Assembly: GCA_947497985.1 (NCBI GenBank)
Contig: CANMIX010000006.1
Span: 62,001-126,000 of the forward strand
Direction of reading: 5' to 3'
Length of the DNA stretch: 64,000 nucleotides
Source: an uncultured Paracoccaceae bacterium
GTDB lineage: Bacteria; Pseudomonadota; Alphaproteobacteria; Rhodobacterales; Rhodobacteraceae
The first letter of the stretch is position 1, and each line of letters starts with the position of its first letter. Of this stretch, positions 56,061-60,595 are shown piece after piece. Below the pieces are notes generated by a model, which worked only from the letters and a program-made list of their open reading frames with translations, did no database searches and was not told the origin of the DNA. Made by a program: the position numbers and the translations under genes.

Positions 56061-57494
56061 ATGGAATTCGGATTTACGACCGCGGCCTATGTTGTCGCAG
56101 CAGTTCTCTTCATCCTGTCCCTGGGTGGTCTCTCAGGTCAGGAAAGCGCCAAGCGCGCTGTTTGGTATGGCATGGTCGGCATGGCGCTGGCGGTGTTTGC
56201 AACTCTTATCGGCCCAGGCTCCGGCCTGTGGGTGCTGTCGATCCTGCTGATCGCAGGTGGTGGCCTCATCGGGTATATGCTGGCGTCCAAGGTCGAAATG
56301 ACCCAGATGCCGGAACTGGTGGCAGGCATGCACGCCCTTGTGGGTCTGGCAGCTGTCTTTGTGGGCCTGAACGCCCATATCGAGCTGGGTCGCGTTTTGG
56401 CGATGGACGACAGCGCCAAGAAAACGCTTGAGGGGTTTGCCGCCCTTCTGGCCAAGAAAGATGGCGTGGAAATCGGCATCCTGCGGGTTGAACTGTTCCT
56501 GGGCGTCTTTATCGGTGCTGTGACCTTTACCGGTTCAGTTGTTGCTTATGGCAAACTGTCCGGCAAGCTCACCTCTGCGGCGACCAAACTGCCAGGTGGT
56601 CACCTGCTGAACATCGCAGCCGCGGTGATCTCGGTTCTGACGCTGTTCTGGTACATGGGCTCCGGTGGGTTCTTCCCGCTGTTCATCATGACACTGGCCG
56701 CGCTGTTCATCGGCTACCACCTGATCATGGGCATCGGCGGCGCGGATATGCCGGTTGTTGTCTCCATGCTGAACTCCTACTCAGGCTGGGCAGCGGCGGC
56801 GATTGGTTTCTCCCTCGGCAACGACCTCTTGATCGTTGTGGGTGCGCTTGTGGGCTCCTCAGGTGCGATCCTGTCTTACATCATGTGTAAGGCGATGAAC
56901 CGCTCGTTTGTCTCCGTGATCCTCGGCGGCTTTGGTGGCGCTTCTGGCCCAGCGATGGAAGTCGAAGGCGAGCAGATCGCAATCGACGCTGACGGTGTTG
57001 CGGCAGCTCTGGAAGATGCGGATAGCGTTGTCATCATCCCAGGCTACGGTATGGCGGTTGCACAGGCACAGCAGAATGTGGCGGAACTGACCCGTCGCCT
57101 GCGCGCCAAAGGCAAGAACGTCCGCTTTGCGATCCACCCGGTTGCCGGTCGTCTGCCAGGCCACATGAACGTTCTTCTGGCAGAAGCCAAAGTGCCTTAC
57201 GACATCGTTCTGGAAATGGAAGAGATCAACGACGACTTCCCTGAAACCGATGTTGCGATTGTCATTGGCTCCAATGACATCGTGAACCCGGCCGCACAGG
57301 AAGATCCGAACTCTCCAATCGCAGGTATGCCGGTTCTGGAATGCTGGAAAGCCAAACAGGTGTTTGTCTCCAAACGGGGGCAGGGCACCGGGTATTCCGG
57401 TATCGAGAACCCGCTGTTCTACAAAGAGAACACGCGCATGTTCTACGGTGATGCAAAAGCCTCGCTCGACAGCCTGCTGACGATGATCAGCTAA
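56061..57494 (+). CDS. pntB: NAD(P) transhydrogenase subunit beta
   Basis: Beta subunit of the transhydrogenase. The N-terminal half (about 1-265) is a set of membrane helices carrying the proton path; the C-terminal dIII domain (about 300-477) binds NADP(H), with [28 protein letters not shown] and [14 protein letters not shown]. At 477 residues it is typical. A strong terminator follows within 25 nt. Confidence 0.96.
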
Positions 57495-57518
57495 GCAGCA
57501 GCTTGGATCATGAATGTG

Positions 57519-57546
57519 AAAACCCCGCCTTTTGGGCGGGGTTTTT
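57519..57546. terminator. Bidirectional terminator between pntB and the HxlR gene
   Basis: AAAACCCCGCC pairs with GGCGGGGTTTT across a short T-rich loop (57519-57546), with T on both strands' 3' sides. It ends pntAB and can also end the convergent HxlR transcript. Confidence 0.85.
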
Positions 57547-57577
57547 GTTTGTGGAATTGACAGTCAGAGGTGGGCGT

Positions 57578-57958
57578 TCATTCCGCGGCTTGCGTGACCG
57601 GCGTGTCCGGGAAACCCTGTCCCGGCACCCATCCTTCGGCGTCCCATTTCAGCGCAACCTCATGCAAGGCGCGCAGGGCCTGATGTAAGTCACGTCCATG
57701 TTCGGTCATCTCGTAACTGACCTCTGGTGGAATCGTGGGCTTCTGGGTGCGCAGAACCAGTCCGTTTTTCTCTAGCATTCGCAGCCGGTCGGTCAAAACC
57801 TTGGCCGAGATTTCCGGCATCAATCCCATCAATTCGCCAAACCGCAGCGGGCTCTCGGTAGAGAGGTGCCACAGAATGGTGGTGGTCCAGCGACCCGTCA
57901 CCGCTCGCAACACAGGATCCATCGGGCAGGCGATACAAGACGCTCCTTTGATAGCCAT
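57578..57958 (-). CDS. HxlR-family transcriptional regulator
   Basis: Winged-helix regulator of the HxlR/MarR-like group, 126 residues from ATG 57958. The pattern DPVLRAVTGRWTTTILWHL, LRFGELMGLMPEISAKVLTDRLRMLE and PPEVSYEMTEHGRDL is diagnostic. Two N-terminal cysteines (C8 and C11 in SCIACP) recall redox-sensing HxlR members that control quinone or aldehyde detoxification. It is divergent from the flavoprotein gene with palindromic sites in between. The longer track start runs through those operators. Confidence 0.9.
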   Translation of the reverse strand: MAIKGASCIACPMDPVLRAVTGRWTTTILWHLSTESPLRFGELMGLMPEISAKVLTDRLRMLEKNGLVLRTQKPTIPPEVSYEMTEHGRDLHQALRALHEVALKWDAEGWVPGQGFPDTPVTQAAE

Positions 57959-57976
57959 GGGCTCACTTTCTTTTTG

Positions 57977-58002
57977 GTAACCGGTTACTAAATGGTAATT
58001 AC
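57977..58002. promoter_or_regulatory. Candidate HxlR operators
   Basis: The perfect palindrome GTAACCGGTTAC (57977-57988) and the shorter GTAATTAC (57995-58002) lie 16 bp apart centre to centre in the 101-nt divergent region. Each shares the half-site GTAA. They sit 19 nt upstream of the regulator start, well placed for joint control of both genes. Confidence 0.55.
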
Positions 58003-58059
58003 TTACTTTTTGAATGTAGGTTTGCCATCTCTTCTTTGCAATCACAAAGGAGAATGCAG

Positions 58060-58635
58060 ATGGCACGGATCGAAATTATCTATTTCTCAGGCTACGGCCA
58101 CACCGCACGCCAAGCGCAGGCGGTTCTGGAAGGCGCACAGACCAAGGGAGAGGCCCGTCTGTGGGCGATCCCTGATGATGGCGTGGTCTCGGACGAATTA
58201 TGGGCGGCGGCGGATGCAGCAGACGCGCTGATCTTTGGTGCGCCGACCTATATGGGGAACGCCCCATGGCAATTTAAACGCTTTGCCGATGACAGCTCTA
58301 AACGCTGGGCGGACCGGACGTGGGCCGACAAATTTGTAGGCGGTTTCACCAATTCCGGCAGCAACCTTGGCGACAAGGGGGAGACGTTGAACTATTTCCG
58401 CGTTCTGGCGGGGCAGCACGGCATGTTGTGGGTGCCGTTGAACCAGATGCCAGCCAACACGCTGGACAGCACGTCCGACGATCGCAATTGGGGTGGCGGC
58501 ACAGCAGGCGCGGTTGCAACATCGCCCGCGGATTCTTCGCCAGAACAGGCCCCCAGCGCCGGTGATCTGAAATCGGCCCATGACTATGGCGTGCGCCTTG
58601 CGGGATTTGCGGCGGCGCGGGCTGCCCTGGTTTAA
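58060..58635 (+). CDS. Flavodoxin/WrbA-like NAD(P)H-dependent oxidoreductase
   Basis: 191-residue FMN-binding flavodoxin-fold protein from ATG 58060 (AAAGGAG 7 nt upstream). The FMN phosphate loop region reads YFSGYGHTARQA; PTYMGNAPWQFK and FTNSGSNLGDKGET match WrbA-type contacts. Such proteins reduce quinones by two electrons and protect against redox cycling. Divergence from an HxlR regulator with N-terminal cysteines supports a stress-induced role. The track's upstream 8 residues overlap the ribosome-binding site. Confidence 0.88.
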   Translation: MARIEIIYFSGYGHTARQAQAVLEGAQTKGEARLWAIPDDGVVSDELWAAADAADALIFGAPTYMGNAPWQFKRFADDSSKRWADRTWADKFVGGFTNSGSNLGDKGETLNYFRVLAGQHGMLWVPLNQMPANTLDSTSDDRNWGGGTAGAVATSPADSSPEQAPSAGDLKSAHDYGVRLAGFAAARAALV

Positions 58636-58669
58636 GCGCTAACAGCACAGCACAAAATCCACCCAACTG

Positions 58670-58702
58670 GGGGCGTTTGCCACAAGCCAAACGTCCCTTT
58701 TT
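58670..58702 (+). terminator. Intrinsic terminator after the WrbA-like gene
   Basis: GGGGCGTTTG pairs with CAAACGTCCC across an 8-nt loop (one G-U pair) and five T follow. Confidence 0.78.
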
Positions 58703-58917
58703 GCGTGTTATCAAAGGGTTAAATAGCCGCTCGCAGGCCAGGAAATGTTTCGCGTGCGAAACAATAGGGCAGGTTTGCTGACCTTGAATTCGAACCCTTA
58801 TTTGTAACTGTTTTTGCTGATGTATACTTTAGTATTCCTTTAACTCATTGAAACAGAACGGTTATTTACAAAGCGATGCGGCTTCACTAGGGTCCGTGCA
58901 AGATCAAGGAGCCACCG

Positions 58918-60198
58918 ATGACCACACTGCAGGACCACCCGCTGCGTTACCAATTGGTGAACGAGCTGCATGCACGCCCGTTCCCGACCATGCGCGCGCC
59001 AAGTACGGTGATCTATTTCGCGGTAAAACAGCCGACGGAAGCGGTGTCTCGGGATCGCGCCAAGGATGTGGAGCATCTGATCGCCCTGTTGGATCGCCAC
59101 GGCGAGCCGCATCCAACGCCGGGTGCCACCCATCATTCGGCGACGCTGGGTCGCTATCACCTCAAATGGGAGCAGCACACCGAATTTGTGAGCTACATGC
59201 TCTATTGTGACGGTGTCGGGGATCGCGCCTTTGACCCGTTGGATTTTAATGCTTTCCCTGCGGAGTGGCGGGCGCAGATACCGGGGCAGGTGATCGCTTC
59301 GGCGATGATCCGCGTGATGGTGCGCCCGGAAGAAAGTGCCATCCGCAAATCGGTCGAGGACTGGATGGTCCCCGAAAGCCTGACGGTGTCGCGGGTTCTG
59401 GATGATAGTGCCGTATTGGCTGGGGATTTCCGGATTGATGCGGCGGGCCACATGCGGTTTGCGGTCTTTGTCAGCGACGGCACCGGCCCTAAACGCATTG
59501 GCCGCGTGGTGCAGCGCTTGTGCGAGGTGGAGACTTACCGCGCCATGTCAATGTTGGGCTTCTCCCGCGCACGTGGGCTGGCACCAACAATTGGCGCGCT
59601 GGACACCCATCTGAGTGAGATGATGCAAGAAATGACAGGGCAGTCGGTGGATGCGGCGGCGACATTGAACCAATTGTTGACCGTGGCGGCTGAACTCGAA
59701 TCCCTTGGCGCGCGCTCGGCCTTTCGGTTTGGGGCAACCGGCGCCTATGAGGCCTTGGTGAACCAACGTGTCAGCCTGCTGCGTGAAGAGCGGTTTCAGG
59801 GCTACCAGACTTTTACGGAATTTATGATCCGCCGGTATGAGCCGGCGATGCGCACGGTGAAGTCCACCGAAGGGCGATTGGCGACATTGGCGGATCGGGC
59901 GCGGCGCGCAGGCGAATTGTTGCGCACCCGTGTCGATGTGGAACGCAGCGCCCAAAACCAGGCCCTGCTGGAAAGCATGGACCGGCGCGCAGACCTGGCG
60001 TTGCGTCTGCAACACACGGTCGAGGGGCTCTCTGTTGTCGCAATTAGCTATTATGCGGTCTCACTTGCCTCATATGCACTCTATCCGTTGACAAAAGCAC
60101 TGGATATTTCCAAAGGAACGTTGACAGCGATTGTCACCGTCCCGGTGATTTTCTTAGTATGGTGGTTAGTGCAGCGGATCAAAAAGAGCCTTCATTGA
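58918..60198 (+). CDS. DUF3422 family protein
   Basis: 426-residue protein of the DUF3422 family, function unknown. It begins DHPLRYQLVNELHARPFP, the family's characteristic N-terminus. A long soluble part with helical segments is followed by a predicted coiled-coil region (about 290-365) and two membrane segments near the C-terminus (about 370-390 and 400-418), with a basic end QRIKKSLH. It would be a membrane-anchored protein facing the cytoplasm. ATG 58918 is preceded by AAGGAGCCACCG. Confidence 0.85.
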   Translation: MTTLQDHPLRYQLVNELHARPFPTMRAPSTVIYFAVKQPTEAVSRDRAKDVEHLIALLDRHGEPHPTPGATHHSATLGRYHLKWEQHTEFVSYMLYCDGVGDRAFDPLDFNAFPAEWRAQIPGQVIASAMIRVMVRPEESAIRKSVEDWMVPESLTVSRVLDDSAVLAGDFRIDAAGHMRFAVFVSDGTGPKRIGRVVQRLCEVETYRAMSMLGFSRARGLAPTIGALDTHLSEMMQEMTGQSVDAAATLNQLLTVAAELESLGARSAFRFGATGAYEALVNQRVSLLREERFQGYQTFTEFMIRRYEPAMRTVKSTEGRLATLADRARRAGELLRTRVDVERSAQNQALLESMDRRADLALRLQHTVEGLSVVAISYYAVSLASYALYPLTKALDISKGTLTAIVTVPVIFLVWWLVQRIKKSLH

Positions 60199-60274: not shown

Positions 60275-60595
60275 ATGATGACCATGAAACTCAAACAAGT
60301 GGAAGGTCGCCACGCGGGTATTGCGAACCGGCTGCGGCTGATCCGTGACTATTACCAGCTTTCCAGCAAGGATTTTGCCCAACAAGCTGATGTTTCTATC
60401 AAGTCTTATTCGCAATGGGAATCCGGCGATTTCCGGATCTCAATCGACGGTGCGCTTTCTATCGGTGCCCGTTTTGGCATTACATTGGACTACATCTACC
60501 TTGGGCGAATTGATACACTCCCCCTTGCCCTTGGTCTCAGTCTGAAAGATGCCGAAACCACAGCTATAAAAAAGGCCCCCATTCCTGCTGAATGA
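60275..60595 (+). CDS. XRE-family helix-turn-helix protein
   Basis: 106-residue cytosolic DNA-binding protein. The HTH domain (about 15-78) reads NRLRLIRDYYQLSSKDFAQQ, then KSYSQWESG and a last helix ALSIGARFGITLDYIYLG, as in Cro/CI-like regulators. The C-terminal tail is short and carries no effector domain. ATG 60275 or ATG 60284 may be used. Its stop lies inside the hairpin of the downstream terminator, so gene and terminator overlap. Target genes are unknown. Confidence 0.85.
   Translation: MMTMKLKQVEGRHAGIANRLRLIRDYYQLSSKDFAQQADVSIKSYSQWESGDFRISIDGALSIGARFGITLDYIYLGRIDTLPLALGLSLKDAETTAIKKAPIPAE

Follow-up and report, generated by a model that had tools for sequence, protein, structure and literature searches.

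The window, a 64,000-nucleotide stretch (contig C6:62001–126000) from the 4.19-Mb draft genome of a marine Roseobacter-group bacterium whose nearest named relatives in our comparison set are Epibacterium ulvae and Tritonibacter species, carries a divergent gene pair in which an HxlR/DUF24 regulator and a WrbA-like flavoprotein have their start codons facing apart across a 101-nt gap (57959–58059). The winged-helix regulator of 126 amino acids is encoded on the minus strand (57578–57958, with its ATG at 57958 and its stop codon ending at 57578), and the flavodoxin-fold FMN flavoprotein of 191 amino acids is encoded on the plus strand (58060–58635, with its ATG at 58060 and its stop at 58635). 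A promoter scan of the 101-nt gap found no sigma-70-like promoter. The flavoprotein transcript may end at a possible intrinsic terminator with an 11-bp stem and a T tail (58669–58698, plus strand), a weak candidate given that such structures were no more numerous than expected from shuffled sequence. Just 3′ of pntB, a GC-rich hairpin with a T run (57520–57550), which the scan did not list, probably serves as a terminator oriented toward the 3′ end of the hxlR gene. On the far side of the pair, 60275–60595 encodes a small HTH_19/HTH_3 protein of 106 amino acids that adjoins a DUF3422 gene and distantly resembles RstR-type repressors.

The regulator scored 82.7 bits against PF01638 (cut-off 20.8, E = 1.7e-23), which places it in the HxlR/DUF24 family, and the best fold matches of its predicted structure (pLDDT 87.5) were HxlR, HypR, YodB and QsrR. 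An earlier note on this DNA had described an HxlR regulator with two N-terminal cysteines, C8 and C11, in the region that described HxlR sensors use; both residues are indeed there, they are the only cysteines in the protein, and C11 aligns with the sensing Cys11 of Bacillus subtilis HxlR. This residue has been described as conserved, with a role in sensing electrophiles or oxidants in other MarR/DUF24 members (PMC7835342). C11, which lies in a CPMD motif just before a helix at residues 13–20, was invariant in an alignment of 30 orthologues and paralogues and is present in every member of the clade (31/31). The regulator therefore has the N-terminal cysteine of HxlR/DUF24 thiol sensors, a feature that is not diagnostic: an equivalent of C11 occurs in 23 of 30 background HxlR proteins, among them each of the three paralogues that the same genome encodes, so by itself it is no mark of redox sensing. 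We consider C11 permissive rather than diagnostic, as judged from these alignments.

C8 was found in just three of the 31 clade members, namely the window protein and those of loci L009 and L010 (with CIAC, CLGC or CISC). The C8–C11 thiol pair is thus not a conserved mechanism, and the suggestion of a two-cysteine switch needs amending; C11 is likely the cysteine that matters. We also considered a YodB-type two-cysteine disulfide switch, which we rejected because the window regulator has no C-terminal cysteine like Cys101, the partner cysteine in YodB (PMC8063818). QsrR is reportedly modified at a single cysteine, Cys5 (PMC6798810); should the window protein act as a thiol sensor, a QsrR-like modification of C11 alone would be the simplest mechanism.

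The divergent partner had been called WrbA-like, and this description holds. It matches FMN_red (6.3e-9), its nearest solved structures by sequence are the WrbA-like 3d7n from Agrobacterium tumefaciens (7.7e-52) and then PnpB and WrbA (1.6e-14 for WrbA), and its model (pLDDT 96.4) has 3d7n as the top fold (fold E 6.8e-19, 47% identity in the fold alignment). Residues of the FMN loops and the H-G motif (S10, G13, H14, T15, P62, T63, G95, F96 and H120) are invariant or nearly so among 32 relatives, and the flavodoxin fold with FMN-binding loops assigns the protein to the WrbA-like flavodoxin superfamily. With 3d7n and Escherichia coli WrbA it shares, besides the fold, an S-x-Y-G-H FMN loop, a P-T-x-x-G-N type loop and the H-G motif; it differs from E. 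coli WrbA in belonging to a separate 3d7n-like subgroup, for which our literature search found no tested function. The cut-offs for WrbA type IV were not reached (65.8 of 132.5 bits for TIGR01755 and 74.6 of 141 bits for NF002999), and we therefore rejected filing the enzyme as WrbA and kept WrbA-like. Since it falls under these cut-offs, quinone activity is suggested by relation only; the protein is a probable NAD(P)H:quinone or related oxidoreductase.

The two genes retain their divergent arrangement in 18 distinct loci of Roseobacteraceae. Close orthologues of both, in this orientation, occur in Epibacterium ulvae, Tritonibacter litoralis, T. aquimaris, Cognatishimia activa and other Roseobacteraceae, and a flavoprotein of the same family is also faced by more distant regulators (~50% identity). 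The pair is flanked by pntB and the DUF3422 gene in the window and in six close loci, in the order pntB, hxlR, flavoprotein, DUF3422 (56061–60198 in the window). At L043 and L089 it is inverted between the same two neighbors, as would be expected of two genes that form one unit. This conservation, along with a conserved predicted operator in the gap, supports the proposal that the regulator and flavoprotein form a self-contained unit. Two flavoprotein matches contain stop codons, an in-frame TAG in G238 and a TAA in G313, located inside the matched region or at its end (L057 and L078).

The intergenic gap had been reported to hold two dyads, and both are found: GTAACCGGTTAC at 57977–57988, and GTAATTAC at 57995–58002, which extends to GTAATTACTTAC at 57995–58006. 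An alignment of the gap among nine close orthologues showed conserved blocks at both. We performed an unsupervised motif search, allowing one site per sequence, on 30 regulator upstream regions that included regulators facing other genes. The search converged on a single 24-bp oriented element with the consensus TGGTTACTnnnnnGTACCTACTTn, and its window copy, CGGTTACTAAATGGTAATTACTTA on the plus strand (57982–58005), overlaps both dyads and is the predicted operator, of the class GGTTACT-N5-GTRCCTACTT. The motif carries 26.7 bits of information over all rows and 27.9 bits over the window and distant rows, compared with 8.6–9.2 bits in eight shuffles, although the figure overstates independence because the rows are related. 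The core of the predicted operator in the window reads GTTACN6GTAATTACTT (57984–58004), and the shared core consists of the GTTAC half and a GTAATTACTT block. The right half of the first dyad is part of this element and the second dyad supplies its right half, while only close orthologues and a few more distant loci retain the left GTAAC half of the first dyad, which is lost in most distant relatives. Thus the dyads stand as conserved blocks but not as independent sites, the better description being one composite element, GTTAC-N6-GTRNYTACTT. This comparison with relatives likely defines the DNA site bound by the regulator.

With at most two mismatches and in constant orientation, the core pattern was found upstream of 18/18 flavoprotein genes that face a clade regulator and in 0/14 flavoprotein loci without one; in a shuffle control this level of match was reached in 8 of 900 cases. 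The element is common to the entire regulator clade and tracks the regulator, not the flavoprotein. A search of the bacterium's own genome for a wider regulon found one exact match to the operator, in the window gap, and two with a single mismatch, a yield not exceeding that of a reversed-pattern control. The single exact match suggests that the regulon is local, and it probably consists of the HxlR/flavoprotein divergon alone. The dodecamer GTAACNNGTTAC occurs at four places in the 4.19-Mb genome as opposed to seven for its reversed control, and taken alone it is weak evidence; the site goes beyond chance because it is conserved among relatives. We set aside the other genomic copies of GTAACNNGTTAC as unrelated: neither the two that precede a LacI-type gene (L005) nor the one at L008 adjoins an HxlR gene. 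The L005 copies are two tandem palindromes 23 bp apart (~1501–1535; G000:C3:52125–52159) and are likely the LacI-type regulator's own operators.

In a tree of 61 HxlR proteins, the window regulator falls in a Roseobacteraceae clade (support 96/86) whose members face different partners: the flavoprotein in 18 rows spread over several sublineages, genes for DoxX_2 and/or the ring-opening dioxygenase LigB in 12 rows that form one clade (99/97), and an isochorismatase-like hydrolase in one row. Regulators with the same operator that face DoxX_2 and/or LigB (4,5-DOPA dioxygenase-like) genes were seen at L045, L093, L094, L095, L102–L104, L107 and L110–L112, an arrangement reminiscent of the control of catDE in B. 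subtilis. In B. subtilis and Staphylococcus aureus, YodB, CatR and QsrR control quinone reductases, nitroreductases and catechol dioxygenases (PMC6212828, PMC6798810). Because the partner set of the clade parallels these regulons, the analogy suggests that the signal is a quinone or a catechol.

We propose, with a probability of about 0.6, that the pair is a local, autoregulated stress divergon in which the HxlR protein is a repressor that senses a quinone or other electrophile through C11, leading to induction of the WrbA-like FMN enzyme. In this model, a regulator dimer would bind the single composite operator between the two start codons and control its own gene together with that of the flavoprotein, most likely as a repressor. 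The C11 thiol, at the start of helix alpha1 and near the dimer interface, would react with a quinone, another electrophile or an oxidant by S-alkylation or S-thiolation, as in QsrR, and the resulting change in DNA binding would turn on the FMN enzyme, which could then reduce the quinone by two electrons.

The closest described analogues are the Campylobacter jejuni systems RrpA-mdaB and RrpB-nfrA, which share with the window divergon a small regulator with a conserved N-terminal cysteine that is divergent from a flavin-dependent reductase; the window also has the conserved intergenic element of such divergons. The C. jejuni divergons are autoregulated and induced by quinones or flavins, with binding to inverted repeats in the intergenic region and an N-terminal cysteine switch (PMC8765430). 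RrpA and RrpB are also the best named NCBIfam models for the window regulator, but it remains far from their cut-offs (52.3 of 185 bits for NF047367 and 44 of 175 bits for NF047364). The systems differ in the reductase, which is MdaB or NfrA rather than a 3d7n-type flavoprotein, and in the inverted repeats (TATCAT and TTATAA); RrpA is moreover an activator with four cysteines. As RrpA activates mdaB while RrpB represses, the sign of regulation in the window divergon is uncertain, and we favor repression. S. aureus QsrR and B. subtilis YodB and CatR share the HxlR/DUF24 fold and the N-terminal sensing cysteine, and they control quinone reductases and ring-cleavage dioxygenases, a set mirrored by the flavoprotein and DoxX/LigB partners of the clade. 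They differ in controlling several target genes, compared with the local single-operator regulon predicted here; QsrR has low sequence similarity to the window regulator (E = 0.014), and Cys101 of YodB has no equivalent in it.

The main competing explanation is a non-thiol autorepressor, either constitutive or ligand-binding, in which C11 persists as a structural leftover of the family and induction is due to a small aromatic or flavin compound that binds non-covalently, or to another metabolic signal. The presence of C11 in most HxlR proteins whatever their neighbors is compatible with this explanation, and the isochorismatase-like, LigB dioxygenase and flavoprotein neighbors of the clade suggest aromatic substrates, beyond oxidants alone. 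We nevertheless regard it as doubtful, since C11 is invariant throughout the clade though much of the flanking N-terminus varies, and since every characterized HxlR/DUF24 sensor that we found in the literature uses this cysteine. An intramolecular C8–C11 disulfide switch limited to a small lineage would explain the CxxC motifs of the three proteins that have C8, and C. jejuni RrpA likewise has an extra upstream Cys8 in addition to its conserved Cys13 (PMC8765430). It is improbable given that the 28 of 31 clade members lacking C8 keep the operator, and most of those in the close group have the flavoprotein neighbor as well; residues 1–6 are also of low confidence in the model, and C8 falls within the low-scoring first block.

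B. subtilis HxlR (7bzd/7bze/7bzg) is the closest solved homologue of the window regulator both in sequence (3.7e-19) and in fold, and its Cys11 aligns with C11, which would be in keeping with an aldehyde sensor of the same type. HxlR is an activator, however, and its formaldehyde sensing requires Lys13 for a Cys11–Lys13 methylene bridge (PMC7835342). The window regulator has Met13, and residue 13 is M, V or L across the clade; we therefore rejected the HxlR-type crosslink. With no aldehyde-handling gene adjoining the pair in addition, formaldehyde sensing is very unlikely. It is less probable still that chance accounts for the two dyads and that the genes are merely neighbors: the genome count of GTAACNNGTTAC against its reversed control would fit such an account, yet the operator is conserved and follows the regulator, and the pair is kept across many genera and genomic contexts. 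We conclude that a C11-based electrophile-responsive repressor is the preferred reading of this divergon.

Taken as a single locus, the pair is ordinary, and a divergent regulator and flavin enzyme is an arrangement already known in kind. Our literature search found nothing specific on alphaproteobacterial HxlR/WrbA pairs and no characterized HxlR regulator from the clade of the window protein. The locus offers a defined predicted operator and a few residues on which quinone or electrophile sensing in marine alphaproteobacteria could be tested, and the clade supplies natural variants, with or without C8, with a C-terminal cysteine or with other target enzymes, for comparing sensor chemistries. 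We tentatively suggest, at somewhat less than even odds, that in this Roseobacteraceae clade the operator has stayed constant while the partner (flavoprotein, DoxX/LigB or isochorismatase-like hydrolase) and the thiol chemistry (one cysteine, N-terminal CxxC, or N- plus C-terminal two-cysteine) vary. If true, the clade would be a natural series in which an electrophile sensor changes its target and its chemistry with the DNA site unchanged. The sister flavoprotein-linked regulators at L044, L060, L061, L092 and L105 all have a C-terminal cysteine at about residue 108–110 that is absent from most of the clade, and this residue may mark a YodB-like two-cysteine form.
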